A DNA stretch of 64,000 bases from Martelella sp. AD-3. Its GTDB lineage: Bacteria; Pseudomonadota; Alphaproteobacteria; Rhizobiales; Rhizobiaceae. The notes under the pieces were generated by a model, which saw nothing but the letters and a program-made list of their open reading frames with translations, did not search any database and was not told where the DNA came from. Where the stretch lies: positions 1,302,001-1,366,000 of the forward strand of contig NZ_CP014275.1 of assembly GCF_001578105.1 (NCBI RefSeq), written 5' to 3'. Position 1 is the stretch's first letter; every line of letters begins with the position of its first letter. Below, piece after piece: positions 7,971 through 25,206 of this stretch. A program made the translations under genes and the position numbers.

Positions 7971-8084
7971 GAGACAAGAGCATCCCGCATTGGTTTTCGA
8001 CGTTCGGCGCTTTTCGCCACTCAATAAAGCGGTTCAGGCCGAAATGGAAGCTTCTCCGCCGCTGCTGCACGGTTTTCCGGCGCT

Positions 8085-9539: not shown

Positions 9540-9643
9540 GGAGACCGTACCCTGTCATACTCTGTGTCATCAGCGGGGTTTTTCCAAACCCGTGATCTAT
9601 GCCATAGCGGTGTAGCGGCACAAACTCAATGGGAAGCAGAAGA

Positions 9644-10894: not shown

Positions 10895-10990
10895 GCGCGG
10901 GGAAGAAGCTTTGTCGCGGTCCAAAGACCCGCGCAAGACTGGCGAACCCGGGAACGATCGTTTAAGAACGCTAAAAAAGGGAGTTTGTTT

Positions 10991-11314
10991 ATGGCATCGT
11001 TTTTCTCGAAGCTCGGTTCTTTGTTTTCCGGCGGCGCCGGCGGCGGTCAGGAGAACGAGCAGGCCGTCAAGTCGATCGTCCACGAGGACTGCATCATCTT
11101 CGCCGAGCCGGTGAAGGAAGGCGCGCAGTACCGGCTCCAGGGCCGGATCGAAAAGGAAGTGGGCGAGGAAACGCTGGTTCGCACCTTCATCCGGGCCGAT
11201 CTGTTCGCCTCCCAGGACGAAGCCATCGAGTGGAGCCTGAAGAAGGGCAAGCAGATCGTCGACCAGAACGGCCGGTCGCTGTTTTCCGACGGTGAGAAAC
11301 ACCGCACGGCCTGA
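10991..11314 (+). CDS. HlyU family protein
   Basis: This 107-residue protein matches the HlyU family, named after a Vibrio haemolysin activator. Most rhizobial members are uncharacterised. Visible family features are a short N-terminal stretch (MASFFSKLGSLFSGG) and the conserved core FAEPVKEGAQYRLQGRIEK followed by TFIRADLFASQDEAIEWSLKKGKQIVDQ. AAAAAAGGGAG precedes the ATG with good spacing. It lies 96 bases after ilvA on the same strand. DNA binding is not obvious, so the family name should not be taken as proof of a regulator role. Confidence 0.8.
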   Translation: MASFFSKLGSLFSGGAGGGQENEQAVKSIVHEDCIIFAEPVKEGAQYRLQGRIEKEVGEETLVRTFIRADLFASQDEAIEWSLKKGKQIVDQNGRSLFSDGEKHRTA

Positions 11315-12129
11315 CCGGGTCCGTCGCCTGACCGGACTCGTCGGAAGCTTCGTGCTGCCGAATGCCAGACCCTTTCCCACAGCGCCCGTTTCTTGGCGGT
11401 GACGCATGGGCGGGCTGAGGCGCGTGCCTGCCTGGCGGCGACCGATGCGGCGCTCGCGCCGATCGGAAAACGCGCCCTTCTGTGCCATCCCCTGTCGTTT
11501 GGCGACTGTGTGCGAACCGGCCGGCCCGCCCGCCGAACGACCGACGCCTTCACGACAGACGTGAACAGGCAAGGGCGATCCAGCCGAAGAACAGGCCGGG
11601 CTTTCTCAACAGGCGGAAGCCCTTTGGCGCTTTGTCGGTCTCGCCGGTTTTCTTTCGGACCTTGCGCGCCCGCATCGCCGCATCGCAGACGCCGGGTCTC
11701 CCGCGCGCGAAGCATTTTTCCAGATCCGGCGGCCCCGGGGCGGCAGCCGGTTTCAGGGCGCATGTCGGGGCGCACGAGGCCGGTCCCGCCGACTGCTCCG
11801 GGTCTGTCTGGCGGATGCGGTGCTTTGCGGGGTGCCGGACAAGGGCCGGCAGCCGCTTCAGGCGGCTCAGTGTGTTGACAAAGCCTGCTCCAATTCCCGG
11901 CCGTCATGCTCGCGCTTGCTGTACGGCCTTGATACTTACCTGACAGATGTTCGCCTGGCACTTTCCGGATAGTAATCTGGGATGTTGGGATGGGGTGGGA
12001 GGCGAAGTCTGTGGTGGATCGACGGTTGGCGTTTTGCCGGCTTTGTGCGCTTGAGGGCGCGAATGTTTCGCAATTGTGCCCGCGCTTGAGGATATCTTGC
12101 CAGACGGGCTATATCTGATTGAAGCGAGT
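11315..12129. other. gene-poor, GC-rich stretch
   Basis: About 800 bases between the HlyU gene and a transposase remnant. Several open frames exist on both strands, but their products are rich in Arg, Pro and Ala, lack ribosome sites and resemble no family I know. I read the stretch as non-coding or decayed sequence, possibly debris from the neighbouring IS. Confidence 0.5.
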
Positions 12130-12490
12130 CAGGTCCTGCGAGGTGGCGCAGGATCGACATCCGCACAGCAGTCCGCGGCGCGCCGATCGGGCGGTTGAGC
12201 AGGCGGTGCGCTATGCGCATCCGGCCTGGGGTGCCCGCAAGATTGCGTGCATGCCGGAGCGTTCGGGGATCGATCCGCCGGCGGCCTCCACCGTCCATGC
12301 TATCCTGGTCGGTCACAAACGGAACGCAACATCCGAGGGCGCGGCACCGGCTTCTGGACGTTTCGCGCGCGAAGCGCCAAACCTGCTGTGGCAGATGGAC
12401 TTCAAAGGACGTTTTCAACTCGTCTCGGGGGACTGGTGCCATCCGCTCACCGTCCTCGATGATCATTCGCGGTTTGCCGTCGCGCGCTGG
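12130..12490 (+). pseudogene. IS481-family transposase remnant
   Basis: This is an internal piece of an IS481-type DDE transposase. It covers the end of the helix-turn-helix region (HPAWGARKIACMPERSG, PPAASTVHAIL) and the first part of the integrase core (APNLLWQMDFKGRF, CHPLTVLDDHSRFAVA). The N-terminus and everything after the second catalytic region are missing, and the frame runs into unrelated DNA near 12490. No terminal inverted repeats were found. It cannot be active. Confidence 0.78.
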
Positions 12491-12504
12491 CTGCCGCAGG
12501 CCAG

Positions 12505-12732
12505 CTACATGTGGAAGATCAGCAGGTAGCTCGTCAGTATGGCGATCCCGAAAAAGGAGATCCACACCGGCATGTTGAACGACGCCGCGGCGGGCATTTG
12601 CGTGTGCTGCTCTTTCTCGACCGCGCTTCCGCTATGCGTTTCCAGCGCAGCGAGACTGTAGCTGCCGCAACGGCGGCAAACGCGCCCAGTATCCTGCACC
12701 ATCATGCAATCGGTACATTTGTAGCGAGCCAT
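12505..12732 (-). CDS. small zinc-ribbon protein with one C-terminal membrane helix
   Basis: This 75-residue protein has an N-terminal zinc ribbon with two Cys pairs (CTDC near residues 6-9 and CRRC near 19-22) and a polar middle. One hydrophobic helix near the C-terminus (ISFFGIAILTSYLLIF) makes it probably membrane-anchored with the ribbon inside the cell. GAGAGGAAC lies upstream of the ATG at 12732, which favours a real gene. Its stop lies at the junction with the IS481 remnant, so the last residues may have been altered by that event. Function unknown. Confidence 0.6.
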   Translation of the reverse strand: MARYKCTDCMMVQDTGRVCRRCGSYSLAALETHSGSAVEKEQHTQMPAAASFNMPVWISFFGIAILTSYLLIFHM

Positions 12733-13069
12733 GTTCGGTTCCTCTCCCGATATGGCAAAGTATAATCCCGAATGGCAGCGCAATCAAGGTATTATAACAA
12801 TGTAATTTATTGTTAACGCTGAGAAAAATACACGACTGAAGGGCTGTTTGGCTTGCTGGCTTGTTGCCGCCAAAGCATCTCTGCTAAGCGTTTGATTTGC
12901 TAATATTATGCGTCGTCAGCGCCTCCGAAGGCGAGGGCCGCCGCGAAGCTCGGAAAACCTCAAGAGTTCGCCGTCTCCGACGGTGAAGTCTGAGAGCAAA
13001 CGATTGAAATCAATCACCACAAGCCGAAACTGAATCCGGCGAGGCAAAAAAGAAAGTCTTGGCTGGGAA
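12733..13069. other. AT-richer intergenic stretch left of the integrated element
   Basis: No convincing gene. Read on the minus strand, the bases just left of the element (13069 downward) contain CTTTCTTTTTT. This would have followed the tRNA-Val 3' end before integration and may be the original tRNA terminator. Confidence 0.5.
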
Positions 13070-13088
13070 GGGATGGTGGGCGATGAGA
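13070..13088. repeat. left attachment site (attL core)
   Basis: The 19-bp core gggatggtgggcgatgaga is identical to the copy at 25127-25145. Fifteen of its bases correspond to the CCA end and acceptor region of the tRNA-Val gene, as expected when a tyrosine integrase uses a tRNA 3' end. Confidence 0.9.
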
Positions 13089-13360
13089 AACCGCCTGCTG
13101 CAAAAGGAACCAAGCGCTTACGGGCATTTGAGACAAAAGAAAAAGATCAACGAAAACAGTGTTTTTCAATTTCCAGTGTCTCACGTTTTCAGCCTGCGAA
13201 TCACCCAAGTTCGAAACTTACGCAGTCGCTTCATAAGAAGTGCTCTGAGGTCGGCAGTGCGATCATTTCAGCCCTGACTGAACGCTTCCAGCTGAGCGCC
13301 CTTGAGGCCAGCGGAGCGGCCAAGCTGGGCCGTGAGGTCGAGCAGGGGAGGCAGGCATGA
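13073..13360 (+). CDS. possible small protein beginning inside attL
   Basis: An open frame of 95 codons starts at an ATG within the attachment core and overlaps the next gene's start by ATGA, which suggests translational coupling. The product is basic and mostly hydrophilic, with a C-terminal FQLSALEASGAAKLGREVE. I recognise no family, and no clear ribosome site precedes the ATG. The true start may lie further in. It could be a small satellite regulator or only a leader for the replication gene. Confidence 0.35.
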   Translation: MVGDEKPPAAKGTKRLRAFETKEKDQRKQCFSISSVSRFQPANHPSSKLTQSLHKKCSEVGSAIISALTERFQLSALEASGAAKLGREVEQGRQA

Positions 13361-14388
13361 GCGTTGACGACTACACCCGCCTGCGCCTGACATGGCTCGA
13401 TCAGGTCTTCGAGGATGAGGCCCTGAGCAAGAGCGCGGCCACCAATGTCGCTTTCTTCATCTCCAAGCACTTCAATCGCCAGCGCTTCAACGACAGCGGC
13501 ATTTTCAGCGCATGGCCGAGTTATGCCACGCTGGCGGAGAAAGTCGGCTGTACGGAGCGCACAGTCCAGAGCGCTGTCCGCCTGCTTGCCAAGCGCGGTC
13601 ATCTGAAGACCAAGGGCAAGGGCGGGCGCAACTGCACGTTGACTTACTTCGCTGTTTTGAAGCGCTCAGAGCAGCAAGAACAGCCCGAAATCCTCCCTGA
13701 AAAAGGTGGAAACACATTTCCACGTTTTGTGCAGGACGATGAAATTGACGCTGCGAAAGGTGGAAATCCGACGTCCGAAACGTGGAAATCTGAAGGTGCA
13801 AAAGGTAGAAGCCAGTTTCCTACAAACTCTTTGAATAAATCTTTGAATGAACCCTTTGAGTTAGGCGCGCGCGCGGAAGCCGAAATCACATCGCTCCCGC
13901 AACAGCCAGCCGAAGAGCAGAAGGCTCGGGATGAAGGGAGTAGGTTGCATTCTCATCACATCACACCGGCGGCAGCGGCGGTTGCAGTGCTGTCTGCCTT
14001 GATGAAGGGACCGGGGCCACTGCCACCACCACCGCCTATCGTTCGCAGAGACCCAAGGCCCGAGTGGCTGATGGATCACCAAGCGAACCATGGATGGCCG
14101 AACGTCTATGAGAACCTCGGTAACCCCGAGCGCTGGGCAGAGGCTTTCGATGATCTGGCTTATGAGATGGAACCCGTTGCAGCCTCGAAGGAGAACCGCC
14201 TGTGGCGTGAATGGGCGGCGGTCTATCGCAAGAGAGGCTGGCCGCTGCCGCCTGCGCAGGATCAGTTGGTCCATTTCCCCGACTGCGGCCCGAAGGGCTT
14301 TGACGGCTTCCTTGAGCGGCTTGATGCAGCGCTGAGGGAGGAAGCGATCAGCGAGGCGGGCAACGTCCTGAGGATTGCGGCGCGATGA
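13357..14388 (+). CDS. winged-helix replication-initiator-like protein
   Basis: This is a 343-residue protein. Its N-terminal ~95 residues look like a helix-turn-helix/winged-helix domain of the phage replication (O-like) type: KSAATNVAFFISKHFN, then WPSYATLAEKVGCTERTVQSAVRLLAKRGHL. A polar, repeat-bearing middle (about 110-170) follows, then a C-terminal domain with WLMDHQANHGWPNVYENLG and a Trp-rich region near 270-310. I infer the role of satellite replication initiator from three things: the domain, the first-gene position, and an iteron-like array plus AT-rich tract inside the gene, the arrangement of lambda O and its origin. No helicase or primase motif is seen, so host or helper replication factors would be needed. 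Confidence 0.6.
   Translation: MSVDDYTRLRLTWLDQVFEDEALSKSAATNVAFFISKHFNRQRFNDSGIFSAWPSYATLAEKVGCTERTVQSAVRLLAKRGHLKTKGKGGRNCTLTYFAVLKRSEQQEQPEILPEKGGNTFPRFVQDDEIDAAKGGNPTSETWKSEGAKGRSQFPTNSLNKSLNEPFELGARAEAEITSLPQQPAEEQKARDEGSRLHSHHITPAAAAVAVLSALMKGPGPLPPPPPIVRRDPRPEWLMDHQANHGWPNVYENLGNPERWAEAFDDLAYEMEPVAASKENRLWREWAAVYRKRGWPLPPAQDQLVHFPDCGPKGFDGFLERLDAALREEAISEAGNVLRIAAR
13702..13811. repeat. iteron-like array within the replication gene (candidate origin)
   Basis: The 11-mer AAAGGTGGAAA occurs at 13702-13712 and 13756-13766. AAACGTGGAAA occurs at 13778-13788 and, on the opposite strand, at 13717-13727. A weaker copy, AAAGGTAGAAG, lies at 13801-13811. The last three copies are spaced 22 and 23 bases apart, about two helical turns. 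Copies fall in different reading frames and on both strands, so protein constraint does not explain them. An AT-rich tract with two CTTTGAAT repeats follows at about 13822-13860, as at lambda ori. Confidence 0.55.
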
Positions 14389-14526
14389 CAGGGCAGAGAG
14401 GGCGGACAGGCCAGCCAGAGACCGCGCTCGGGTCCTTCCTTTAGGCCCTGATGCGGGTATTTGGCACCCCGCGATTTCAGTCACTGAGAGTAAATTTTAT
14501 ACCTAAAAACAATTGGTTAGTTTGGA

Positions 14527-15054
14527 ATGGGTATGCAGGAAACGCATAGCAATACCGCCGATCCGGCGCTCTCGCAGATGCCGAGAAGCCTTTCGAAATC
14601 GGCCTTTGCAAAGTTTGTCGAGGTTTCGCCTGGGCGCATCTCGCAGATGGTCAAGCAGGGCCTTCCGGTCGAGGCTGACGGCAAGATCGATGTAGCGCGC
14701 GGCAAGCTCTGGATCTCCGAGAACATCAACCACACCCGCGCCGCCTCTCACGCCAAAGGGCCGACGCTGTTCGGCGAGGAAAAGCAAAAGACCTCGCTCA
14801 CCGCAGAGCGCGCCCGGCTGGCGAAGGAACAGGCCGACGCCGCCGAGATCAAGAATGCCATCCTGCGCAAGGAACTGGTTCACGCTTCCGACGTCGAGCG
14901 GGAATGGGCGGCAGTGTTGCGCAAGGTCCGCGCTGGCGTCCTCGCCGTTCCCTCCCGTGTCCGCCAGCTTCTGCCGCATCTGACCCCGCATGACGTCGAA
15001 GCCTTCGACAACGAACTCCGCCGCGCTCTTGAGGATCTCGCCAATGACGACTGA
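14527..15054 (+). CDS. small terminase subunit (Nu1-like)
   Basis: This 175-residue protein is expected to recognise the packaging site and recruit the large terminase. The N-terminal third holds a winged-helix DNA-binding motif (SKSAFAKFVEVSPGRISQMVKQGLPV). A long charged helix (TAERARLAKEQADAAEIKNAILRKELVHA) and a helical C-terminus with LRKVRAGVLAVPSRVRQLLP follow, a layout shared with lambda Nu1-type proteins. It overlaps the TerL start by 11 bases. ATGs at 14527 and 14533 are both possible; neither has a strong ribosome site. The 138-base gap before it (14389-14526) is where a cos site would be expected. Confidence 0.8.
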   Translation: MGMQETHSNTADPALSQMPRSLSKSAFAKFVEVSPGRISQMVKQGLPVEADGKIDVARGKLWISENINHTRAASHAKGPTLFGEEKQKTSLTAERARLAKEQADAAEIKNAILRKELVHASDVEREWAAVLRKVRAGVLAVPSRVRQLLPHLTPHDVEAFDNELRRALEDLANDD

Positions 15055-16822
15055 CACCCTTGCGAACGTTCGCAAAAGCGCTCTTGCTGCCTTGATGCCG
15101 CCGCCGAAGCGCAGGCTTTCGGACTGGATCGAGGAAACGATCATGCTGCCCGATGACGTGTCGGCGCTGCCCGGTTCCGTGCGCCTCTGGCCCTTCCAGC
15201 GCGATATTGCCGACGCCATCGGTGATCCGCTGATCGAGCGCGTCACGCTGGTCAAGCCCGTCCGCGTCGGCTTCACAACGCTGCTGACCGGCGCCCTTGC
15301 CGGGTATATCGCGAATGACCCTTCGCCGATCCTCTGCCTTTTGCCGACAGAAGCGGATTGCCGCGACTACATGGTTTCGGATATCGAGCCGATCTTCAAC
15401 GCCTCGCCGGACCTGATCGGGCTTCTGGCTCGTGGCGGCAGTGACGGCGAGCGCAACACGCTCATGGCAAGGCGCTTTCCGGGCGGCTCTCTGAAGGTGG
15501 TTGCCGCCAAGGCACCGCGTAACCTGCGCCGTCACAATGTCCGCGTTCTGCTTTGCGATGAGGTGGACGGGATGGAGAACGGCGCGGAAGGCTCGCCGAT
15601 CCTCCTGGCCGAACGGCGCACCCTGTCCTTTGCCGACCGCAAGATCGTGATCGGTTCAACGCCGGTCTATGCCAACACAAGCCACGTGCTGCGCTCCTAT
15701 GAGCAATCCGACAAGCGGGTGTTTGAGGTTCCGTGCCCGGAATGCGGCGGGTTCCACGAGATCCAGTGGAAGGATATCCAGTGGCCCGAGGGCGAACCGG
15801 AGCGCGCCGCCTATCACTGCCCTTCATGCGGCTGCGAGATCGAGGAACGGTGGAAGCCACAAATGGTCTCAGACGGCCGCTGGCGCGCCACACAGCCCGA
15901 AGTAACCGATCACGCGGGTTTCCGCCTCAACGCGCTCGTGTCGCTTCTGGCGAACGCCTCATGGGCCAAACTGGCGAAGGAGTTTCTTGCCGCCAAGGAT
16001 GACCCGGCGCTCTTGCAGGTGTTCACAAACACCATTCTTGCCGAAGGTTGGAACGAGGCAGGCGAGGAACTGGACGAGAACGACCTCTACAGCCGCCGCG
16101 AAGCCTTCGGGCTTGAACCGGTCCCGCAAGAGGCTCTTGCGCTCACAGCGGGCGTTGACGTCCAGAGAGACCGGCTTGAGATTTCTTTCCTGGGATGGAC
16201 GGAAGCGGGCGAGTGTCTGGTTCTCGGGCATCGTGTCATCTGGGGTAGCCCGCATGACGAGGAAACATGGGCCGAACTGGAAAGCCTTCTCTCGACACGC
16301 TGGCCGCATGCCCTTGGCGGACGCATGGGGCTTGATGCCGCTGTGGTCGATAGCGGCGACGGCGAGACTATGGAGCGGGTCTATGCCTTCTGTTTTCCGC
16401 GCTATCGGCGCAAGATCGTTGCGGGCAAGGGTGTTGCCGGTAACCGGCAATGGATCGAGCGCTCCAAGACCAAGCGCGGCGGCAATCTGTTTCTGGTGGG
16501 GGTCGATGGCCTGAAGGCGCATATCGTGGCGAGGCTCGCCCGTGGGCGCACGATCCGCTTTGCGAATGACCTGCCGCCTGTCTGGTTTGAACAGCTTGCT
16601 AGTGAGCGGCTTGTGGTGCGCTATTCGCGCGGTCAGCCGTCCCGACGGTTTGAACGGATACCCGGTCGGGCGGCTGAGGCGCTGGACTGCGTTGTCTATG
16701 GCTTCGCGGCTCGGCAGTTGGTTAACGTGAACTGGCTTCAGAGGGCGGATGATCTGAGGCATGATCAGCCGCAGACGCGGCAGGAAGAGCAGCGGGTGGT
16801 GCGAAGCCGTTGGCTGCGATAG
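15044..16822 (+). CDS. large terminase subunit (lambda gpA family)
   Basis: This is the ATP-driven DNA packaging motor and nuclease, 592 residues. The ATPase domain has the lambda-type Walker A around 71-79 (KPVRVGFTT) and Walker B near 168-175 (VLLCDEVD). A zinc-binding pair CPEC (231-234) / CPSCGC (259-264) is typical of gpA. The nuclease part includes AGVDVQRDRLEI and AAVVDSGDGE. The length is close to lambda gpA (about 640). The ATG at 15044 lies inside the terS end, giving coupled translation. Lambda-type terminases cut at cos, so cos packaging is the expectation. Confidence 0.95.
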   Translation: MTTDTLANVRKSALAALMPPPKRRLSDWIEETIMLPDDVSALPGSVRLWPFQRDIADAIGDPLIERVTLVKPVRVGFTTLLTGALAGYIANDPSPILCLLPTEADCRDYMVSDIEPIFNASPDLIGLLARGGSDGERNTLMARRFPGGSLKVVAAKAPRNLRRHNVRVLLCDEVDGMENGAEGSPILLAERRTLSFADRKIVIGSTPVYANTSHVLRSYEQSDKRVFEVPCPECGGFHEIQWKDIQWPEGEPERAAYHCPSCGCEIEERWKPQMVSDGRWRATQPEVTDHAGFRLNALVSLLANASWAKLAKEFLAAKDDPALLQVFTNTILAEGWNEAGEELDENDLYSRREAFGLEPVPQEALALTAGVDVQRDRLEISFLGWTEAGECLVLGHRVIWGSPHDEETWAELESLLSTRWPHALGGRMGLDAAVVDSGDGETMERVYAFCFPRYRRKIVAGKGVAGNRQWIERSKTKRGGNLFLVGVDGLKAHIVARLARGRTIRFANDLPPVWFEQLASERLVVRYSRGQPSRRFERIPGRAAEALDCVVYGFAARQLVNVNWLQRADDLRHDQPQTRQEEQRVVRSRWLR

Positions 16823-16827
16823 ATTGG

Positions 16828-17841
16828 CTAATTTGGTTTGAGATACCCCTTCTCGACCATGGAATCACGATCTTGTTGTTCCTGCCTAAGAAACTCGGCA
16901 TATATTTCCGACCGGATTTGGGCGGCTATGTCTGGGCGCAATTGCTCAAATACTTGGATCACTTGATTGCTGGTATAATCTCGGTATGGAATTGGAAGTC
17001 GTGTGATTAAAAAAAACACCGTCGATGATAACATCGAAAAAGCTACGATACCGACGATTACTTTCGAATAGATTTTCAGACTCTCGTGAATCCAGACATA
17101 ATTCAATACGACGAATGTAAAATAAAATGATATAATATAAAATATGAATATAGACACCAGAAAAATAACTAGAATAGCTGAATTTATAGAAAGTGATAAT
17201 GAGTTGAATGTTATATGTGGCAAGTTAAAAGGATGGTAAAATCCTTGAATGTAACTTCTATCATATTTTATTTTGTAATAAGTGTATAGCTCTGGCTCCA
17301 GTTTTTTATTTATTATATGATTTATATACGAGTTCAAAATGAACATTTTATTATCATTGTTGATACATATTATTCCTATAATAGTGTTGATGACTAATAT
17401 CAATTCAAGCGCCCCGGGGAAGTCGGAAACGTGAAATCCAAATACATTTAACCCCAGCTCAACACCGTAAACCTTAAGTAGAGAAAAAATAAAAAGAGAA
17501 GACGATACCAAGAAAAGTTTATTGTTGAATGACGCGATTCTGATGCTCACAGTATGCATCTCGTCGGCTAGTTTCTTGTCTAGTAGTATGTTGCCATTCT
17601 CTGGCTCATATAGATCGAGGTCCAAATCAACAAGTTGATCTGGTCTAAGAAAAACTATCGGGTTGACTAGTGACCTTCTCCTTTGGGATCTGAAGAAGAA
17701 CATCACTAGAGCTATCTTTTTCTTTATAAAGAATAGCATAGAAATATCCATCGTGTGAATTTCGTTCTTTGCGATAGGCCATCTATGAACGATGTCATCC
17801 AATGGCTTTGAGCCAAAGAGCGAAAATAGACATGAGCTCAA
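16828..17841 (-). CDS. AT-rich membrane protein of unknown function (cargo)
   Basis: This 337-residue protein has about four strongly hydrophobic segments: around residues 107-125, 138-157, 215-250 and 260-282. The N-terminus is cytosolic-looking and basic, and the helical C-terminal tail (EIYAEFLRQEQQDRDSMVEKGYL) is charged. Base composition is far more AT-rich than the packaging genes on either side, and it runs against them, which suggests separate acquisition. Its stop lies 6 bases from the convergent terL stop. It sits downstream of a possible trypco2-like gene and an XRE regulator, probably in one transcript. A membrane effector in an anti-phage or helper-interference system is a hypothesis only. 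Confidence 0.6.
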   Translation of the reverse strand: MSSCLFSLFGSKPLDDIVHRWPIAKNEIHTMDISMLFFIKKKIALVMFFFRSQRRRSLVNPIVFLRPDQLVDLDLDLYEPENGNILLDKKLADEMHTVSIRIASFNNKLFLVSSSLFIFSLLKVYGVELGLNVFGFHVSDFPGALELILVINTIIGIICINNDNKMFILNSYINHIINKKLEPELYTYYKIKYDRSYIQGFYHPFNLPHITFNSLSLSINSAILVIFLVSIFIFYIISFYFTFVVLNYVWIHESLKIYSKVIVGIVAFSMLSSTVFFLITRLPIPYRDYTSNQVIQVFEQLRPDIAAQIRSEIYAEFLRQEQQDRDSMVEKGYLKPN

Positions 17842-17850
17842 AAAGGTCTT

Positions 17851-18258
17851 TTACCTGAAGCTAGGTCTGCCGCGCCACCTCTCTTTTGCTTTTAGATACT
17901 CGTCATTTCTGTGCTCATCTATTTTTTGGGCCTTTTCAACGTCTCCGAATGGAAGGCGAACGGGGACACTAAATGTAAGCCTGTTCGCCGCGCCACGTCT
18001 ATGCTCTGCACTTGCGTCAACCCCAAGACCAAATACTCTTAGGCCGCCACTTCCAGCTCCTTCGGTTTCTGCCGATACCGCAATATCGAAGTCAACTCTA
18101 GTGAACATGCCGTACTCACCGGCATCGAAAAGCTGATCCGTATTCCAGATCGTGTTTTTCTTCGCATTTATATTCTCACCTCCATCACTGTTTTGCGCTT
18201 CATTTATACCTCTGAGTATTTCTTTTAGGCTTTTGCTAATATATTCGCTCAACTCCAT
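17851..18258 (-). CDS. possible trypco2-like small protein (cargo)
   Basis: A 135-residue protein starts at ATG 18258, with GAGGAGGAAAG just upstream; a longer frame to 18315 lacks this support. An N-terminal helix (MELSEYISKSLKEILRGINEA) is followed after a linker by a beta-rich core: VDFDIAVSAETEG, LRVFGLGVDASAEHRRGA, NRLTFSVPVRLP. This helix-plus-sheet layout resembles trypco2 domains, known from NTPase- and protease-linked bacterial conflict systems. No trypsin-like partner is nearby. It starts 10 bases after the XRE gene and ends 9 bases before the membrane-protein gene. Confidence 0.5.
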   Translation of the reverse strand: MELSEYISKSLKEILRGINEAQNSDGGENINAKKNTIWNTDQLFDAGEYGMFTRVDFDIAVSAETEGAGSGGLRVFGLGVDASAEHRRGAANRLTFSVPVRLPFGDVEKAQKIDEHRNDEYLKAKERWRGRPSFR

Positions 18259-18268
18259 TCTTTCCTCC

Positions 18269-18499
18269 TCATTCTGTCTTGCGTAGCCGCACGCCTGGCG
18301 ACTTGCCATCGTCATTTAGAAAAACGATTCCAGCTCCTTCTAAAGCCTGTTTAATGGCTTCAAGCGTTCGAGGCAGTAGCTCTTCGCCTCGTTCAAAACG
18401 TGAAACCGTGTCGGCTGAAACACCTGCGTTCTTGGCGAGGTCGCGAACCCCCCAGCCAACAGCTGCACGAGCCATTTTGCATTGGATAGGCAATATCAT
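18269..18499 (-). CDS. XRE-family transcriptional regulator
   Basis: This 76-residue helix-turn-helix protein has the core CKMARAAVGWGVRDLAKNAG, VSADTVSRFERGEE and the family's short C-terminus (TLEAIKQALEGAGIVFLND). It is the first gene of the reversed cassette and faces the plus-strand gene at 18592 across a 92-base divergent region with a candidate operator, so it may control both. It is the only candidate for a master repressor in the element, though it is very small for that. Similar proteins are common in rhizobial genomes. Confidence 0.85.
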   Translation of the reverse strand: MILPIQCKMARAAVGWGVRDLAKNAGVSADTVSRFERGEELLPRTLEAIKQALEGAGIVFLNDDGKSPGVRLRKTE

Positions 18500-18514
18500 A
18501 TCATTGTACCGATT

Positions 18515-18548
18515 TCGTATTGACGAACTGAATATGCGAAGCTATCGT
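18515..18548. promoter_or_regulatory. candidate divergent promoter and operator of the cassette
   Basis: On the plus strand TTGACG (18521-18526) and TATCGT (18543-18548), 16 bases apart, could form a promoter for the gene at 18592. The inverted repeat TTCGT-attg-ACGAA (18515-18528) overlaps the -35 box and is a plausible XRE operator. Assigned by eye only. Confidence 0.35.
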
Positions 18549-18591
18549 AACAATGCACTGAATTCGGATTATTGACAACGGAGCAACGCGA

Positions 18592-19131
18592 ATGAGCACT
18601 CATTTTCGCGAACAGGACAACTACGTCCGCATTACAGAGCTCACCCCGGAGCTGAAGCGCAAGATCGAGGACGCGGTCGAAAACCTGCTGATGATCCTCG
18701 ATGCCTATGACGGCGAGGCGGACGACGAAGACGACGGCAGCGACGAACCGGTGAACGGATGGCCCAATCAGGGGCAGTTCTCCAACAACGCCATGTCCTG
18801 CGATGACGAGCGGGAAATCGACAATTCCGAATACGAGCCTTGGCTTGGCTGGACAACGTCAGGGCTTGCTGGCGCAACGTATGACCGCGATCTCGAAATC
18901 AACGGCGATGAACACGAGCCGTTTTGCGGCTGGACCGAAGAATTCGATCAGGCCAACGTTCACAGAACCGCAGATACCGGACCGCAGGAATGGAGCTACC
19001 ATTACGGCTTCGATCAAAGCGGTGTCCGTGTAGCGACCGACCTGCTGACGGCAAAACTTGGACGCCGGGCAGCGAATCGCGCCGCGCCGTTGCTGGTCTA
19101 TCAAGATTTTGTCCTGCGAAGAGCGACCTGA
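18592..19131 (+). CDS. acidic hypothetical protein
   Basis: This 179-residue protein is very acidic in its middle (ADDEDDGSDEP). It carries a loosely repeated unit of about 40 residues: EIDNSEYEPWLGWT near 69-82 and EINGDEHEPFCGWTEEF near 102-118. CGGAG precedes the ATG. I recall similar acidic repeat proteins as hypotheticals in rhizobia; no function is known. It lies between the reversed cassette and a DNA-binding-like gene. A DNA-mimic or inhibitor role is conceivable from the charge but unproven. Confidence 0.65.
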   Translation: MSTHFREQDNYVRITELTPELKRKIEDAVENLLMILDAYDGEADDEDDGSDEPVNGWPNQGQFSNNAMSCDDEREIDNSEYEPWLGWTTSGLAGATYDRDLEINGDEHEPFCGWTEEFDQANVHRTADTGPQEWSYHYGFDQSGVRVATDLLTAKLGRRAANRAAPLLVYQDFVLRRAT

Positions 19132-19215
19132 GATAACCAGTTTGAAGTTAATGGTACGAAATAAGATAAAATAATACACTGGTATTTTTTGTTCGGATGT
19201 GGTTTTAATGCACCC

Positions 19216-19824
19216 ATGGAACCGAAGCAGACTGCCCCCGAATATATCTATCCCCTCTCCACCATGATCGAAGTGGTGGGTGTGAAGCAGATCACGTTCA
19301 ACAAATGGCGGATCCGCAATGGCCTGTTTCCGCGCACAAAACAGGAAAAGGGCTGGAGCTATTATTCCGTCGCTGACATCTGCACGGCCACGGCCGTCAA
19401 AGGTCTGATCGCACAAGGCGCTCAGGCCAAGTTTGCGATCAGGGCAGCCATGGCCCTCCTGCCGCGCTTCGAGGCCATGGACAAGGCGGCGAGGGGGCAT
19501 AAGGCCGAGGATGACTGGATTGACCGGGTTCTGAAGCACAGCGTCGCCGTGATCATGAGTGATGATGACGCCGACGAACACGAAGATGCTGAGGTTTCGG
19601 TCGAGTTCTACCCGATCATGGTGCCGCTTAAGACGGTTCTCAAGACGGCCGACAACCGCAACCGGATCGGCTGGAATGCCGCAAGCTTCCTCGACCTGTT
19701 CGAGATCTACAAATCGGTTCTGTTCTCGCTCCAGATCATCAAGTTGGGCGATTTGGTCAATCCCGCTGCGCTTGACCGAATGAGCATCCAGGACCTGTTC
19801 GAAGCGCTTCAAGCCAACCACTAA
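19216..19824 (+). CDS. MerR-like helix-turn-helix protein
   Basis: This is a 202-residue protein from ATG 19216; an in-frame TTG at 19189 would add nine residues. The first ~70 residues form a MerR-type winged helix (YPLSTMIEVVGVKQITFNKWRIRNGLFP, then YYSVADICTATAVKGLIAQG). The rest is an uncharacterised helical domain. A regulator or activator of the portal-capsid block just downstream is a reasonable inference from position. It could also be a second TerS-like packaging protein, since MerR-like folds also occur in terminase small subunits. Confidence 0.6.
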   Translation: MEPKQTAPEYIYPLSTMIEVVGVKQITFNKWRIRNGLFPRTKQEKGWSYYSVADICTATAVKGLIAQGAQAKFAIRAAMALLPRFEAMDKAARGHKAEDDWIDRVLKHSVAVIMSDDDADEHEDAEVSVEFYPIMVPLKTVLKTADNRNRIGWNAASFLDLFEIYKSVLFSLQIIKLGDLVNPAALDRMSIQDLFEALQANH

Positions 19825-19860
19825 GCCGACCGGTCATAACGGGAGCGAATAGATAAGCTG

Positions 19861-21183
19861 ATGGCATCCTATATTAGAAAACTCTTTCATAAGAGGAACA
19901 AAACAGACGCAAAGCATGGCCGTAGCGTGAACGCTGCGGCCTTCTGGCCTGATGATCCCCGCACAGTGTCAGCCAGCCGCGACATTCGTGCGTCCACGCA
20001 GATCGTCGGCCAGCGTGTTGCAGGCCTCTATCTGAACGATCCGGTTGTCCGCTCCGCCGTCGAGATCATGGTTTCCATGCTGGTCGGTGACGGCGTTCGC
20101 CTGAAGCATTCGGATGCAGAGATTGCCAAAGGCTTCAACAGCCGCCGCTTCGATCCTTCCGAAGAACAGAGCCTGCTTTCGCTGCAACGCGCCGTGGCCC
20201 GCTCCTGGGCCGTCTACGGCGAAGCGCTGGCACTGATGCGCACCCTTGAGGGCGAGGTATCCGTCCAGATGCTGCACCCCGATCAGCTGGAACGGGCAAA
20301 GAGCGAAGACCTCGGCAATGGCCGGGTGATCATCGCAGGCGTTGAATTCGATGAATTCGACCGCATCGTCGCTTACTGGATCCTGCCGCAGTCGCCGGAC
20401 GATCCCTTTGGCGTCTATCGTCCCTCGCAGCGCTTCGAGGCAGCGAACGTGCTGCATATCTTCGAACGGGAGTTTCCCGGCCAGACGCGCGGCATTTCCC
20501 CGCTGGTCTCGGTTCTGCCGGTTCTGAACACGGCCAGCATTGCCGTCGATGCCGGTCTGAAGAAGCTTCAGGTGGCAGCACTCTTTACCGCTTTCCTGAC
20601 CACGCCGGACGGCTCGGATGTCTTCAGCGGCGATGTGAAGCCCTCGATGGAGCCGGGGGCAACGGTTCGCCTCAATCCCGGCGAAAGCGTTGACATGGCC
20701 GAAGGCGGCGAGGCGGGCGATCTGCCTGCCTTCCTCAAGATCCTTTACCGGCAGGTGGCCGCTGCCATCGGCTGCACCTACGAGGATCTGATCGGCGATC
20801 TTGAGGGCGTGAACTATTCGAGCTTCCGGGGCGGTGCCCTGACGGCACGGCGCAAGGCGGACGCCCGTCGCACCCTTCTGATCATCGACGGCTTTCTGGT
20901 GCCGCTCTATCGCCGCTGGCGGGCCATTGAAGCGCTGCGCGGCAATCTCTCGGCCGAGATCGAGGATCCCGAATGGATCGAGCCCTCATGGCCGCAGGTC
21001 GACCCGATGAAGGAAGCGCAGGCGGATATCGATCTGGTCGATGCCGGTCTGAAGAGCCGCAAGGAAGTCATCGAAGGCCGGGGCCGCGACTTCGAGACCG
21101 TCGAGGCCGAGATCGCCGCCGACACCTTCACCCCAAAAGCAGCCAAGGCCAAAGCGCCGGAACAGGAGGCCATCGAAGAATGA
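19861..21183 (+). CDS. portal protein (lambda family)
   Basis: The portal ring forms the DNA entry vertex of the head and the joining point for the tail. The 440-residue product has the lambda-portal pattern: an early RDIRASTQIVGQRVAGL, the middle RYQ-type region AVYGEALALMRTLEGEV, HIFEREFPGQTRGISPLVSVL, and near the C-terminus AIGCTYEDLIGDLEGVNYSS. It is somewhat shorter than lambda gpB (533). Its stop overlaps the protease-capsid start by ATGA, so the two are coupled. Confidence 0.93.
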   Translation: MASYIRKLFHKRNKTDAKHGRSVNAAAFWPDDPRTVSASRDIRASTQIVGQRVAGLYLNDPVVRSAVEIMVSMLVGDGVRLKHSDAEIAKGFNSRRFDPSEEQSLLSLQRAVARSWAVYGEALALMRTLEGEVSVQMLHPDQLERAKSEDLGNGRVIIAGVEFDEFDRIVAYWILPQSPDDPFGVYRPSQRFEAANVLHIFEREFPGQTRGISPLVSVLPVLNTASIAVDAGLKKLQVAALFTAFLTTPDGSDVFSGDVKPSMEPGATVRLNPGESVDMAEGGEAGDLPAFLKILYRQVAAAIGCTYEDLIGDLEGVNYSSFRGGALTARRKADARRTLLIIDGFLVPLYRRWRAIEALRGNLSAEIEDPEWIEPSWPQVDPMKEAQADIDLVDAGLKSRKEVIEGRGRDFETVEAEIAADTFTPKAAKAKAPEQEAIEE

Positions 21184-22991
21184 CGCTTCTCATGCGCAGG
21201 ACGCAAGCGCGCCCGAACTCATACGATCCCGAAACCCGCAGCTTCACCGTGATTGCTGCCACCGAAGCGCCGGTTGATCGCGGCGATCATATCGAGGTGC
21301 TCGACCTCGATGCCTTCTTTGCCGCAGGCCTGCCCGAAAGCCTGCCGCTTCAGACCGACCATTCCCAAAGTGTCCGCGACACGGTCGGCCGCATGAACAA
21401 CTTCCGGATTGAGACCATCGACGGCAGGCGCGCGCTTGTTGCCGATGCCGTGCTTTCCGGCCGTGCCGACAATGACGCCCTTGCCGCCAACCTGAAGGAC
21501 GGTGCGCAGACGGGTTTCTCGGTCGGCTACACCGTTTCCCGCTGGCAGAAGTCGAAGGACGGCCAGACGGGAAAGCCGATGCGACGCGCCGTAGCCGGGC
21601 GGTTCGTTGAGGGTTCGCTTGTCATCAACCCGGCAGACGCAAACGCCTTTGTGAGGATGGACACCATGGAAACAGAAACGCAGACCGGCAACGAAAACGC
21701 CGGTCTCGATGACGCAACGCTGCGCACGATTGCCCGCTCGGCAGGCATCGCCGACGCCACGATTGACACCGTGCTTTCCCGTGGCGGCGACAATGAAGCC
21801 CGCATGCGCGGCCTGCTCGAAAGCCTCGGCACTGCGCCGCTTGTTCGCAGCGCCGGAAACCACAATGAAGATACGCTCGACAATCCGCAGGTTCTTTGCC
21901 GTGCGGCCATCGATGCTTTTGACGCCATCAACCGGGGACAGGCTCCGACCGGGGCCGCTTCCGCCGTCTTTGCCGAAGGCGAGGCCGCCTTTGCCCGCCG
22001 CATCCTGCGCAATGCCGGTCAGAACATCGCCGGTCTTTCCGATGCGATGGTTCTGCGCAACGCGGCCGCCACTGCCGACTATGCGATCATCGCAGGCGGG
22101 ACGTTCAATCTCTCCATGCGCCGCGAGTATGAAGCCGCTCTCTCCCCGATTGCCACGCTCTTTGGCGAGACAACGGTGGAGACCTTCAACAAGGAAACCT
22201 CCGGCCTCGTTGACTGGACGACGCTTGCCATTGGCGACAAGCTGGAAAACGGCCACTACAAGGCGTCGTATGTTGATGAGAGCGGCGAGACGATCTTTGT
22301 CTCGACCATTGGCGGGGTAACGTCCGTATCGCGCGAGCTTTCGATCAATGCCGGTTCCAGGCTTGGCGATATGGGGTCCAAGTATGGCCGCAGGCTTGCC
22401 GCTGACCTTGCCGACCGGCAGGTCGCATTCCTTGAACAGAATGACGGGGCAGGCCCGAAGATGGCAGACGGCAAGGCCGTGTTCCATGCCAGCCGTGGCA
22501 ACATTGGTATCTTCGAAGATCCGGCCGACACTGGCGATGCCCTTCAAGACATCAACCTTCTTTTGGAGAAGTCCCGGCAGGTTCTGGCCTTCCGCTCCTC
22601 CATGTCGCGCCGGAAGGGCAAGGGTGATGTGATCATCGGGGTCTATCCGACCCACTGGCTTGTCCCGCCGGAATATGAAGCTGACGCCGTGCGTATGGTG
22701 CTGGCAACAGCGCCGACCAATATGGCGGAGATCAACCCACTGGCCGGCAAGCTGGTGGTTGTCTCGGAGCCGCGTCTCAGCAACGCAAAGCGTAGCTGGC
22801 TGGTCGCTGAGCCTGCCAAGATGGACGGGGCGACCCGTGTGCTGCTGCGCGGCAATGAGGCGCCCTTCACCGATAGCCGCCAGAACTTCGACACCGACGC
22901 CATCGACTTCAAGATCCGGCAGGACTTCGGCCTCGGCTGGCTGGAATGGCGGTCGTGGACCCGGCTCGATCACACTGAGGCGGCAGGCTGA
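21180..22991 (+). CDS. prohead protease / major capsid protein fusion
   Basis: This single 603-residue chain carries both head-maturation protease and shell protein. Residues 1 to ~160 are an HK97/U35-type serine protease with His61 (QTDHS), Ser114 (GFSVGY) and an acidic FVEGSLVINPAD at about 142-153. A linker of about 150 residues (TETQTGNENAG onward) would act as the scaffold or delta region. The C-terminal half (from about 320) is a capsid fold of the Mu-like/lambda-like type (TLFGETTVETFNKET, PTHWLVPPEYEADAVRM, LGWLEWRSWTRLDHTEA). Fused forms are known in alphaproteobacterial phages. Self-cleavage between the halves is expected. Confidence 0.9.
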   Translation: MTLLMRRTQARPNSYDPETRSFTVIAATEAPVDRGDHIEVLDLDAFFAAGLPESLPLQTDHSQSVRDTVGRMNNFRIETIDGRRALVADAVLSGRADNDALAANLKDGAQTGFSVGYTVSRWQKSKDGQTGKPMRRAVAGRFVEGSLVINPADANAFVRMDTMETETQTGNENAGLDDATLRTIARSAGIADATIDTVLSRGGDNEARMRGLLESLGTAPLVRSAGNHNEDTLDNPQVLCRAAIDAFDAINRGQAPTGAASAVFAEGEAAFARRILRNAGQNIAGLSDAMVLRNAAATADYAIIAGGTFNLSMRREYEAALSPIATLFGETTVETFNKETSGLVDWTTLAIGDKLENGHYKASYVDESGETIFVSTIGGVTSVSRELSINAGSRLGDMGSKYGRRLAADLADRQVAFLEQNDGAGPKMADGKAVFHASRGNIGIFEDPADTGDALQDINLLLEKSRQVLAFRSSMSRRKGKGDVIIGVYPTHWLVPPEYEADAVRMVLATAPTNMAEINPLAGKLVVVSEPRLSNAKRSWLVAEPAKMDGATRVLLRGNEAPFTDSRQNFDTDAIDFKIRQDFGLGWLEWRSWTRLDHTEAAG

Positions 22992-23236
22992 TGGCAGTGG
23001 ACGAGCGCACAGAGCTTCAGGCCCAACTCAGCGAAGCAAAGCAGGCGCTGCACAAGCTCGAAATCGGCCAGAGCGCCGTCACGCTCTCTTATGACGGCGA
23101 GAGCATCACCTACACCGCTGCAAACCGCACTTCCCTGCAAGCCTACATTCGCAGGCTTCAGGCCGAACTCGGGGTTCCCACACAGGCGAACCCGCGCATC
23201 TTCAACATTCAGGGACGAAAGGGCTACAGGCCATGA
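22991..23236 (+). CDS. gpW-like head-tail connector
   Basis: This 81-residue protein resembles lambda gpW, which plugs the portal after packaging and is needed before tails attach. Features are an N-terminal helix (LQAQLSEAKQALHKLEIGQS), a beta-hairpin (VTLSYDGESITYTAAN) and a second helix (LQAYIRRLQAELG). It overlaps the capsid gene stop by one base. In lambda the W gene lies between terminase and portal; here it follows the capsid gene. It is the last gene clearly on the tail side of the head, consistent with borrowed tails. Confidence 0.82.
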   Translation: MAVDERTELQAQLSEAKQALHKLEIGQSAVTLSYDGESITYTAANRTSLQAYIRRLQAELGVPTQANPRIFNIQGRKGYRP

Positions 23237-23553
23237 AGAACTTCATTCAGCCCGGCAACATTGTCGATCTCACCGCGCCCGCTGGCGGGCTTGCCTCGGG
23301 GCAAGCCCATCTCTTCGGTTCGCTCTTTGGCATTGCCACCACAAGCGCCGCAGAAGGCCAGAGACTGGCCGTGTCGCTCGAAGGCGTCTTCGACCTGCCC
23401 AAGGCCGCAGGCGACAGTCTCGGCGAAGGTGAGGCCGTCTATTGGGATGGCGCGGCAATCTCGGCCACGAGCGAGGGCAACACGCTTGTCGGCCATGCCG
23501 TGGCCGCTGCGCCAGCCGCCGCAACGACCGTTTACGTCCGCGTCAAAAACTGA
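23233..23553 (+). CDS. DUF2190-family protein, probable capsid decoration
   Basis: A 106-residue, Ala/Gly-rich, beta-rich protein with the DUF2190 pattern: FIQPGNIVDLTAPAGGLASG near the start, then VFDLPKAAGDSLGEGEAVYWD and a C-terminal VYVRVKN. Members of this family lie next to capsid genes in many phages and are thought to bind the outside of the shell. Here it overlaps the gpW-like gene by four bases (ATGA), within the head operon. Confidence 0.78.
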   Translation: MKNFIQPGNIVDLTAPAGGLASGQAHLFGSLFGIATTSAAEGQRLAVSLEGVFDLPKAAGDSLGEGEAVYWDGAAISATSEGNTLVGHAVAAAPAAATTVYVRVKN

Positions 23554-23722
23554 TGCGGGCAGAGATCGGCGAGGGCGTTTCCGAATCCGCTTTCGCCGAA
23601 ACGCCAGTCAAGCGCAGGTGACTGGTTAGCGGCGTTCTCCTTGGTCCGCCGCTGCAAAGGCCTCTCCCCGTGTTCGCTCATCGCGGGGGGAGGCTGAGAT
23701 CGAAAAACGAGGAAAGAATAAG

Positions 23723-23977
23723 ATGGCAGGTAGCAGTTTGCGGGAAGTGACGATCCCCCGTTTTGCGTTACGGGCAGAAGAGGCAGCGGCATCGCTGGCA
23801 ATCTCGACTTCGCTTTTCAAGGCATGGGTTTCTGATGGACGCATGCCGAGGGGGCGCAAGATCGGCGGTGTGATGCTTTGGGACACTGAGAAGGTGAGGG
23901 CGGCTTGGAGCCGTCTTTCTGAAGATGGCGAAAGCCAGGACGATGATGAGAATCCCTTTGATGGGATGGTGGCCTGA
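23723..23977 (+). CDS. AlpA/excisionase-like helix-turn-helix protein
   Basis: This 84-residue protein has a MerR/AlpA-type DNA-binding motif (AEEAAASLAISTSLFKAWVSDGRMP, then GGVMLWDTEKVRAAW) and an acidic tail. It overlaps the integrase start by one base. In P4- and PICI-type satellites small HTH proteins beside int control excision and induction; a recombination directionality factor is the best guess. AGGAAAGAATAAG precedes the ATG. Confidence 0.75.
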   Translation: MAGSSLREVTIPRFALRAEEAAASLAISTSLFKAWVSDGRMPRGRKIGGVMLWDTEKVRAAWSRLSEDGESQDDDENPFDGMVA

Positions 23978-25092
23978 TGAAAACCCGATTGCGCTACTGT
24001 GTGTTTGATCCTGATCGGCGCGGAAACCCGCGCTATTACGTGCGCCAAGTTGGTAAGCCAAAAGTGCGGATCAAGGCGGCGTATAAGGATGATCAGGGGA
24101 ACATCACACCGGAATTCATGGCTGAGTATTGGGCGGCTCTGGCCGTCCTTAATGGTATGGCTGAACCGAAAAAAGAAGCGCCGCGCGAAGAAACCTTCGA
24201 CTGGCTGGTCGATCAGTATTTTCGCTCGCAGCGCTTCCAGCGGCTCAATGAGGCCACCCGGCGCGACAAGCGCAGTGTGTTGTTGCGGTTCTGCGAAACG
24301 GCCGGTGCGCTGCCCTACAAGAAGTTCCGCAAGAAGGACATGGAGGCCAGCCAGTTCAAGCGCCGCGAAACACCCGGTGCAGCTGACAAGCTCGTGAAGG
24401 TGATGCGCGCACTCTATAACTGGGCGATTGACGAAAAGCTTGCCGTGGAAAACCCGGCGGCGCGTGTCGGCAAGATCAACAATAAGTCGGAAGGCTTCCA
24501 CACATGGACGCCGGAAGAAGTTGACCGGTTCCGCGCCTTTCATCCGCTCGGCAGCAAGCCGCGACTGGCGATGGAAATCATGATCAATGTCGGCGCGCGG
24601 ATCTCCGACGCATGCCGACTCGGCCGCCAGCACGAAACCATGATCAACGGTCGGCGATGGCTGAAGTTCACCGCTGAAAAGAACCGTGACCGCTTTCCGG
24701 TGCTGATCGAGGTGCCGATGACCTCTGACCTTATCAAGGCGCTCGAACGCACAGAGACGGGCGATCTGGCCTATCTGGTGACCAGCTTCGGCAAGCCATT
24801 CGTGAAGGAAGGTCTCGGCAACAAGATGCGCGAATGGTGCAATCAAGCCGGGCTGAAGCGTTGCAGCGCCCATGGGCTTCGCAAGGCTGCTGCCGTGATC
24901 ATGGCTGAAAGCGAAGTGTCAGCGCCGGAGCTTTGTGCTGCCTTCGGATGGCGCAATCTCAGCACGGCACAGATCTACATTCGCGAAGCTGAAAAGCGCC
25001 GTCTCTCCCGAAATGCCTTCGAGCGTGTCGAACGCTTCAGGAACAGGAATGTCTCACTTTCAAAAGCGAAAAACGCCGATGAGACAGATTGA
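23977..25092 (+). CDS. tyrosine-type site-specific integrase
   Basis: This 371-residue recombinase is presumed to insert the element at the tRNA-Val 3' end. The catalytic residues are visible as Arg208 (GARISD), Lys235 (AEKN), His299 and Arg302 (HGLRK), Trp325 in place of the second His (GWRN) and nucleophile Tyr334 (AQIYIREAEKRR). An N-terminal arm-binding region and a SAM-like core-binding region (about 70-160) precede the catalytic domain. The stop lies 34 bases from the attachment core, the usual arrangement for integrase and its att site. Confidence 0.95.
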   Translation: MKTRLRYCVFDPDRRGNPRYYVRQVGKPKVRIKAAYKDDQGNITPEFMAEYWAALAVLNGMAEPKKEAPREETFDWLVDQYFRSQRFQRLNEATRRDKRSVLLRFCETAGALPYKKFRKKDMEASQFKRRETPGAADKLVKVMRALYNWAIDEKLAVENPAARVGKINNKSEGFHTWTPEEVDRFRAFHPLGSKPRLAMEIMINVGARISDACRLGRQHETMINGRRWLKFTAEKNRDRFPVLIEVPMTSDLIKALERTETGDLAYLVTSFGKPFVKEGLGNKMREWCNQAGLKRCSAHGLRKAAAVIMAESEVSAPELCAAFGWRNLSTAQIYIREAEKRRLSRNAFERVERFRNRNVSLSKAKNADETD

Positions 25093-25126
25093 GGAAATTA
25101 TGATGGGAAAACAGTGCCCTAAAAAG

Positions 25127-25145
25127 GGGATGGTGGGCGATGAGA
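25127..25145. repeat. right attachment site (attR core)
   Basis: The second copy of the 19-bp core, overlapping the CCA end and acceptor/T-arm of tRNA-Val by 15 bases. The tRNA gene is left intact on this side. Confidence 0.9.
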
Positions 25146-25206
25146 GGCTCGAACTCCCGACATCCTCGGTGTAAACGAGGCGCTCTACCAACTGAGCTAA
25201 TCGCCC
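25131..25206 (-). tRNA. tRNA-Val (anticodon TAC)
   Basis: The minus-strand 76-mer folds into a cloverleaf with acceptor GGGCGAT/ATCGCCC, D-arm AGCTCAGTTGGTAGAGC, anticodon arm CCTCG-TTTACAC-CGAGG, T-arm around GTTCGAGCC, and an encoded CCA. It serves as the integration target of the 12-kb element. Confidence 0.96.

Follow-up and report, generated by a model that had tools for sequence, protein, structure and literature searches.

The 64,000-nucleotide stretch of Martelella sp. AD-3 DNA analysed here (the window) carries, at positions 13070-25145, an integrated element that is most probably a mobile satellite, making its own DNA-filled head and borrowing only the tail, and hence host entry, from a helper phage. 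We put the probability of this reading at roughly 0.87. It is carried by the anatomy of the element, its integration site and the empty counterpart of that site in congeners, selection on its genes, the clade formed by its relatives, the exchange of modules among them and a mosaic head-tail adaptor.

Gene content and integration site

The element lies between two identical copies of a 19-bp repeat, GGGATGGTGGGCGATGAGA, which form the left attachment site attL (13070-13088) and the right one, attR (25127-25145). The repeat occurs exactly twice in the window, with no third copy and none on the opposite strand, giving a unit of 12,057 bp. AttR overlaps the 3' end of a tRNA-Val(TAC) gene found by ARAGORN on the reverse strand (25131-25206), the host gene that is the integration site; repeat search and ARAGORN thereby agree with the sequence-only reading, which had described a 12.06-kb segment between identical 19-bp repeats, one of them within the tRNA-Val 3' end. 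The repeat pair is not a chance one, since the flanks, once joined, can be aligned across the junction in two of the four congeneric genomes tried (409/510 on the left, 17/19 in the attachment site and 132/144 on the right in G241; 379/525, 18/19 and 123/137 in G242), while in G237 and G238 they align on the right side only. The same element is already present in IMG/VR as a 12.6-kb viral contig (L038). Just left of attL, at 12119-12529, stands a weak transposase-like open reading frame (ORF) with rve and HTH_32 matches, both below cut-off.

Fifteen ORFs of the element were scanned against Pfam and PHROGs at E up to 0.01. The first forward-strand block holds an O-like replication initiator (rep; 343 aa, 13357-14388; PHROG replication initiation families, best E 1e-12; HTH_36), the small terminase subunit TerS (175 aa, 14527-15054; phrog_57, E 5e-36) and a large terminase subunit TerL of the GpA type (610 aa, 14990-16822; PF05876, E 4e-84; PF20454, E 2e-89). 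The second, likewise forward, holds a portal of the lambda family (440 aa, 19861-21183; PF05136, E 1e-64), a maturation protease fused to the major capsid protein (603 aa, 21180-22991; PF25209, E 2e-24; phrog_4523 'major head and protease protein', E 9e-72), a gpW head-tail adaptor (81 aa, 22991-23236; PF02831, E 1e-16) and a head decoration or cement protein (DUF2190; 106 aa, 23233-23553; PF09956, E 2e-28; phrog_122). These are followed on the same strand by an AlpA-like regulator or excisionase (84 aa, 23723-23977; phrog_25900 'transcriptional regulator', E 2e-7; phrog_66 'excisionase and transcriptional regulator', E 0.0045) and, at the tRNA side, a tyrosine integrase (371 aa, 23977-25092; PF00589, E 4e-18). 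AlpA-family regulators are a hallmark of phage-inducible chromosomal islands (PICIs); the 84-aa protein had no Pfam match, and no match named AlpA in either scan. Profile matches thus bear out the integrase, the replication-like gene and each of the packaging and head genes that had been named from the sequence, and the scans of the 15 ORFs likewise agree with the claimed absence of tail, tape-measure, baseplate and lysis genes. Neither a receptor-binding gene nor a stopper family was found among the element proteins in these scans, gpW being the sole head-tail connector found, and the capsid protein had 0 matches among PDB sequences. An ORF at 13073-13360 was rejected as a gene, its ratio of non-synonymous to synonymous substitution rates (dN/dS) being 1.24.

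Relatives in the Alphaproteobacteria

A scan of genome contigs with the single capsid protein found no relative, and relatives were found with a TerL alignment as query, of which the best 80 of 125 in species genomes and the best 80 of 330 in viral contigs were used. Together with loci from capsid searches these gave 179 loci, mapped with profiles built for this analysis. A locus was called satellite-type when the gap between TerL and portal exceeded 900 bp and an integrase lay 2.5-8 kb from the portal start, which sorted the loci into 90 satellite-type, 37 prophage-type, 10 permuted, 16 other and 26 incomplete ones; 90 of 179 is not a frequency, since the loci were picked by TerL or capsid match and from best-80 lists. 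The 90, among which are the copy of the window itself and elements that recur in more than one collection, hold 74 distinct TerLs and 70 distinct adaptors and have the gene order TerL-cassette-portal-capsid-integrase, so that the same core genes do recur in related genomes in a conserved layout, as the sequence-only reading required.

The position of the adaptor is a trait outside the sorting rule. It follows the capsid gene in 88 of the 90 satellite loci, the other two being without an annotated adaptor, and precedes the portal in 23 of the 24 prophage-type loci in which an adaptor is annotated (13 are without annotation). Tail genes divide the loci in a similar manner: 31 tail-region and lysis references (11 from Rhodobacter phage RcKemmy, nine from phiAP1, six from prophages of the Martelella sp. 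AD-3 genome itself and five from the locus L065) match 27 of the 28 prophage-type loci of at least 16 kb, L065 included, and eight of the 48 satellite loci of at least 16 kb. The matches in satellite loci are limited to a stopper, a minor tail (completion-like) protein, an unknown protein after the cement gene, or a baseplate gene some 10 kb away, and tube, sheath, tape measure and fibre found no match in these 48; with short loci included, 11 of the 90 have a tail-reference match. Satellites with a stopper-like (FII) gene, a minor-tail (completion-like) gene or both are L084, L191, L096, L160 and L161, the minor-tail-like gene of L084 lying between rep and TerS.

In FastTree phylogenies all 90 satellite rows fall into one portal clade (local support 99) and all 88 satellite rows into one capsid clade (local support 97). 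The only row labelled prophage-type inside the satellite portal and capsid clades is L109, in which the adaptor is placed as in satellites and no tail reference matches; it looks like a satellite. In the TerL tree prophage TerLs nest among those of satellites (5 changes), and terminases therefore seem to have been exchanged between satellites and phages; the prophage-type loci L065, L073 and L153 have a TerL 64-66% identical to that of the window and a portal only 24-26% identical. Prophages with a related TerL have portal and capsid outside the satellite clade, gpW before the portal, and tail genes, so that the head genes of the element are not those of full tailed prophages. Rhizobium, Brucella and Agrobacterium are among the named hosts of prophage-type loci with a satellite-nested TerL.

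For the 100 satellite and permuted loci the named hosts are Rhodobacterales (28), Hyphomicrobiales (15), Acetobacterales (3), Sphingomonadales (2) and Alphaproteobacteria of unplaced order (3), with 49 lacking a class name. A tRNA gene lies at most 1.5 kb past the integrase in 40 of 52 satellite loci examined (a few of them duplicated) and a repeat of at least 16 bp was found in 34 of the same 52, with units of 9.85-12.8 kb and varied tRNA sites. When portals were searched at the level of the class, 28 of 385 genomes gave a match at E up to 1e-30, a figure which takes satellites and phages together and is not a prevalence. These loci place head-making satellites in a sizeable alphaproteobacterial lineage whose head family is unlike the HK97 type of the sister element described below.

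Some further relatives depart from the common layout. In the permuted loci L094, L112, L117, L126, L128, L184 and L207 portal, capsid, adaptor and cement stand before TerS and TerL; L202 and L203, also labelled permuted, are placed among prophages by their portals and match tail references. The capsid relatives L045, L047, L051, L055 and L056 fall in a neighbouring clade, no TerL or portal of the satellite family being mapped in their 20-kb stretches. A divergent relative with a TerL of 47% identity lies beside tRNA-Ser(GCT) (L287, genome G244, 1198-13106), where a D5-type primase upstream of TerS replaces the O-like initiator.

Exchangeable modules and the gpW adaptor

The head genes are split into two blocks by a cargo cassette, as had been described from the sequence, with reverse-strand ORFs at 16828-18499 between TerL and the rest. 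The cassette is exchangeable: the element of the congener G240, at the same site, has 94-95% DNA identity to that of the window except in the segment 16800-18576, and that of G246 has 84% from rep to cement with a different integrase, a different site, tRNA-Val(GAC), and a different cassette, the segment having no blastn match in either. It comprises a cargo ORF of 337 aa (16828-17841, reverse) with no Pfam, PHROG or PADLOC match and a single, 100% identical cluster in a protein database search, a cargo ORF of 154 aa (17851-18315, reverse) with a weak Trypco2 match (PF19631, E 0.0011, below its cut-off), and a Cro/C1-type helix-turn-helix (HTH) protein of 76 aa (18269-18499, reverse; PF13560, E 5e-8), which in the elements of G239, G240 and G246 has homologous counterparts, 38-41% identical, next to the cargo. 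The earlier statement that a large repressor is lacking stands as far as a large CI-type protein is concerned, but the small HTH gene is a plausible, indeed probable, satellite repressor. In G240 the replacement of about 2.0 kb holds two different ORFs and an HTH of 41% identity. Right of the cassette, on the forward strand, are a 179-aa protein (18592-19131) with homologues in all three of these elements (74/128 aligned residues in G239) and a variable 211-aa protein (19189-19824), for which 'MerR-like' is a weak label (phrog_2474, E 0.0025) and whose alignment with the neighbouring 193-aa gene of G239, 12/61, is unconvincing. Relative to G240, in which the portal is 99% identical, the HTH (41%) and the 211-aa protein (77%) have diverged most among the core genes; relative to G246, rep and the 211-aa protein have diverged equally, both being 70% identical (portal 93%). 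The HTH and its neighbours may set immunity and the induction signal.

While the window's own cargo has no recognisable function in Pfam, PHROG, PADLOC or protein database searches, the slot between terminase and portal is an exchangeable cargo bay, and in some relatives it holds genes already known to act against phages. From the relatives 76 cassette proteins were listed and 58 of them scanned; among the matches listed (25 of 42 PADLOC families) they fit the models PD-T7-4, PDC-S45, NsnA, CapP, SoFic, PD-T4-2 and HEC-05; the domains found include Fic, GmrSD_N, MrcB_N and SLFN_AlbA_2, in each case in single members or pairs of the 58.

The head is exchanged as well. At the same tRNA-Val(TAC), the congener G239 carries an element of 15.9 kb (C14, about 318.6-334.6 kb) in which the integrase (365/371, 98%), the AlpA-like protein (82/84) and rep (76%) are near relatives of those in the window. 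Its head, however, is of the HK97 type, with Phage_portal (PF04860), Peptidase_S78 (PF04586), Phage_capsid (PF05065), HNH, Terminase_4 (PF05119) and TerL_ATPase/TerL_nuclease (PF03354/PF20441), the sole connector candidate being a 126-aa protein of no clear family. The families PF05065, PF04860 and PF03354 mark the known capsid-forming PICIs (cf-PICIs). Since this sister shares integrase, AlpA-like protein, rep, HTH and 179-aa protein with the window element, one chassis carries two unrelated heads, within one genus and at one tRNA. The cargo beside its HTH is a 1017-aa SIR2-NB-ARC protein with weak TPR matches (L288, 8005-11058), to all appearances STAND/NLR-like.

A second element on this chassis lies in the Martelella sp. 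AD-3 genome itself, at tRNA-Val(GAC) (C1, 642239-649266; L338, 8240-15267), with 6,979 bp between 49-bp repeats. It holds a rep of 85% identity, a homologue of the 179-aa protein, an AlpA-like gene and an integrase, and an IS21 pair takes the place of head genes and cargo; it is probably a headless remnant of the chassis. A reading as a headless classical PICI was rejected, its two large reverse-strand ORFs being the IS21 genes.

The adaptor departs from the rest of the head. Two more GpA-type TerLs are found in the same genome, in lambda-like prophages at 2.374 Mb (capsid, decoration, protease, stopper Hc1, tail terminator, central fibre J and fibre genes identified) and at 1.655 Mb (tape measure and J identified). 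Identity to the 2.374-Mb prophage is 28-29% for the satellite portal and TerL and 61% for gpW, whereas gpW is only 37% identical to that of L039, the closest satellite by portal (74%). The gpW body (residues 3-61) has 38-42 of 59 residues identical to 12 gpWs of the genus outside satellites, against 8-11 for five satellites and 14-15 for two more (L121 and L131), whose adaptors are also of the PF02831 type. The C-arm (the last 18 residues) has 12 identities with the satellite L040 and 10 with L039, values as high being reached in 0 of 20,000 shuffles, and at most four with the 12 congeneric phage-type gpWs; nine of these 12 adjoin a GpA-type TerL of 29-31% identity and no adjacent TerL was found for the other three. 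A C-terminal KG motif is present in 65 of the 70 distinct satellite adaptors, in one of 17 prophage-type adaptors (L109) and in none of the 12 congeneric phage ones, a contrast of which shared descent of the satellite adaptors explains much. In lambda, according to the available part of PMC10721106, residues 55-68 of gpW form a C-arm that augments a strand of the portal, and the gpFII ring encloses the hairpin barrel. The change of affinity near residue 61 thus falls close to the border of body and arm, Pfam position 55 aligning to residue 62 of the window gpW. The protein may therefore keep a C-arm that fits the satellite portal while wearing a body that fits the stopper and tail of local phages, a residue-level and testable hypothesis for the choice of tails by satellites. 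The body swap is seen in one genus only. Recent capture of gpW from a resident prophage was rejected, as the satellite gpWs of G000, G240 and G246 resemble each other (75-99% identity) more than the gpW of any phage in the genus (58-67%); the acquisition is older than these three.

Several points weigh against this account. The proximity of the integrase and the gap between TerL and portal are not independent evidence, because the sorting rule used both, and five of the 31 tail references stem from L065, itself a prophage-type locus. Cement is annotated in 65 of the 90 satellite loci, an HTH in 44, an AlpA-like gene in 41 and an O-like rep in 25. HNH, part of the cf-PICI description in the available part of PMC10690885, had no Pfam match among the element proteins and is present in the G239 sister. 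The C-arm has seven, six and four identities with three other satellites, the lowest being no better than phages, and tail docking differs across the family, since stopper- or completion-like genes are found within some of the relatives. In G240 the satellite's adaptor is the sole gpW, so that co-residence of a phage-type gpW is not required, and, contrary to a strict pairing, PF02831 occurs in only four of 41 genomes with loci of the family, three of which have a single match, in the adaptor of the satellite itself. The mosaic could also be the trace of an earlier helper.

These last observations favour the alternative that the element is a cf-PICI-like satellite whose tails do not come from the lambda-like prophages of the genus, the gpW body being an old recombination and the present helpers other phages. 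Given that about two thirds of the body residues are still identical to those of congeneric phages and that gpWs outside satellites occur in eight of 13 genomes of the genus, two of them in Martelella sp. AD-3, we hold this unlikely, although it is to be taken seriously. An autonomous small phage or tailless virus needing no helper would also possess a replication initiator, packaging and head genes of its own, but is very improbable in view of the missing lysis and receptor-binding genes and of the retention of gpW, which evolves at a dN/dS of 0.15 and 0.16 in two comparisons; the presence of gpW is by itself no proof against such a virus, because in the available part of PMC10721106 lambda gpW is also credited with holding packaged DNA.

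Slighter still is the chance that the element is a deletion remnant of a lambda-like prophage, having lost its tail, lysis and regulation genes and decaying in place. The TerL shared at 64-66% identity with three prophage-type loci, the nesting of prophage TerLs among satellite ones, and the presence of a true chassis remnant elsewhere in the genome, with IS21 where head genes would be, can be cited for it. However, the same compact layout recurs in 90 loci with another gpW position than in prophages, repeats resembling attachment sites delimit units of similar size in 34 of the 52 loci, portal and capsid form a clade apart from prophages, and the genes show no decay: relative to the same-site element of G240 dN/dS is 0.012 for TerS, 0.034 for TerL, 0.020 for portal, 0.019 for capsid and 0 for integrase, and relative to G246 it is 0.116, 0.056, 0.079 and 0.104 for the first four. 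Terminase, portal and capsid genes are thus intact and under purifying selection, free of the inactivating mutations that the sequence-only reading had named as fatal to it, and since there is also an empty site in two congeners the element is not a remnant. A host-domesticated head system packaging host DNA, akin to the gene transfer agents of which Alphaproteobacteria are the classic hosts, is scarcely credible for an element with its own integrase, attachment repeats and replication gene, empty sites in congeners and relatives at varied tRNA sites.

For the head-making satellite, we infer induction, particle formation, tail supply and transfer as follows. The integrase and AlpA-like protein would insert and excise the element at tRNA-Val, the small HTH and its neighbours would repress it as long as no helper signal arrives, and the O-like protein would start its replication after induction. 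Its own TerS and TerL would cut and pump the DNA into a head of its own portal, fused protease-capsid and cement, whereupon gpW would close the portal and present a helper-type surface: the satellite-type C-arm would grip the satellite portal, and the stopper (gpFII/Hc1) and tail of the helper would dock on the helix-hairpin body, which is common to lambda-like phages of the genus. The cassette next to the HTH would be cargo, anti-phage in some relatives. We give even odds to the broader notion of a plug-in platform, in which a constant chassis of integration, replication and control genes takes, in the capsid-forming satellites of Alphaproteobacteria, unrelated heads (lambda/GpA or HK97 type) and defence cargo and fits tails by swapping the gpW body while keeping the portal-gripping C-arm; if it holds true, tail compatibility, and hence host range, could be read from some 60 residues of one protein.

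Comparison with known systems

No description of the lineage or of the adaptor mosaic was found in the open-access literature searched, the coverage of which was partial, and priority is accordingly not established. P4-like satellites, classical PICIs, including those of Staphylococcus aureus (SaPIs), and PICI-like elements (PLEs) depend on a helper, as the window element would, but according to the available parts of PMC11389934 and PMC10690885 they hijack or remodel helper particles and have no complete head of their own, whereas a complete head set is found here. The lambda-like prophages of the genus share GpA terminase, gpW and portal with the element, and RcKemmy has these together with the capsid-protease fusion; unlike the element, however, these phages have tails and carry gpW between TerL and portal. 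The Streptomyces elements MulchRoom and MiniFlayer, satellites of virulent phages, have packaging and capsid genes of their own, in which they can be likened, by description only, to the window element, and have no significant homology to cf-PICIs as far as the available part of PMC10690885 goes.

The closest likeness is to the cf-PICIs, defined in the available part of PMC10690885 by their own terminase, portal, protease, capsid, connector and HNH endonuclease, with tails taken from a helper. Like these, the window element is a small integrative satellite with integrase and regulator, site-specific integration between attachment repeats, its own TerS, TerL, portal, capsid, maturation protease (fused to the capsid) and connector (gpW), and no tail or lysis gene found. 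It differs in having PF25209, PF05136 and PF05876 instead of the HK97-type set of the G239 sister, HK97 being also the type of the cf-PICI prototype EcCIEDL933. The assignment to this class made by the sequence-only reading consequently holds for the own head and packaging set, the missing tails and the conserved family, and falls short in that a lambda/GpA-type head without HNH does not lie strictly within the published gene list. The HK97-type sister in G239 has a gene set which fits that published description, in the part available, closely, and judged by its genes the window element would be a capsid-forming satellite working like a cf-PICI, a lambda/GpA-type variant on the chassis that the two share.

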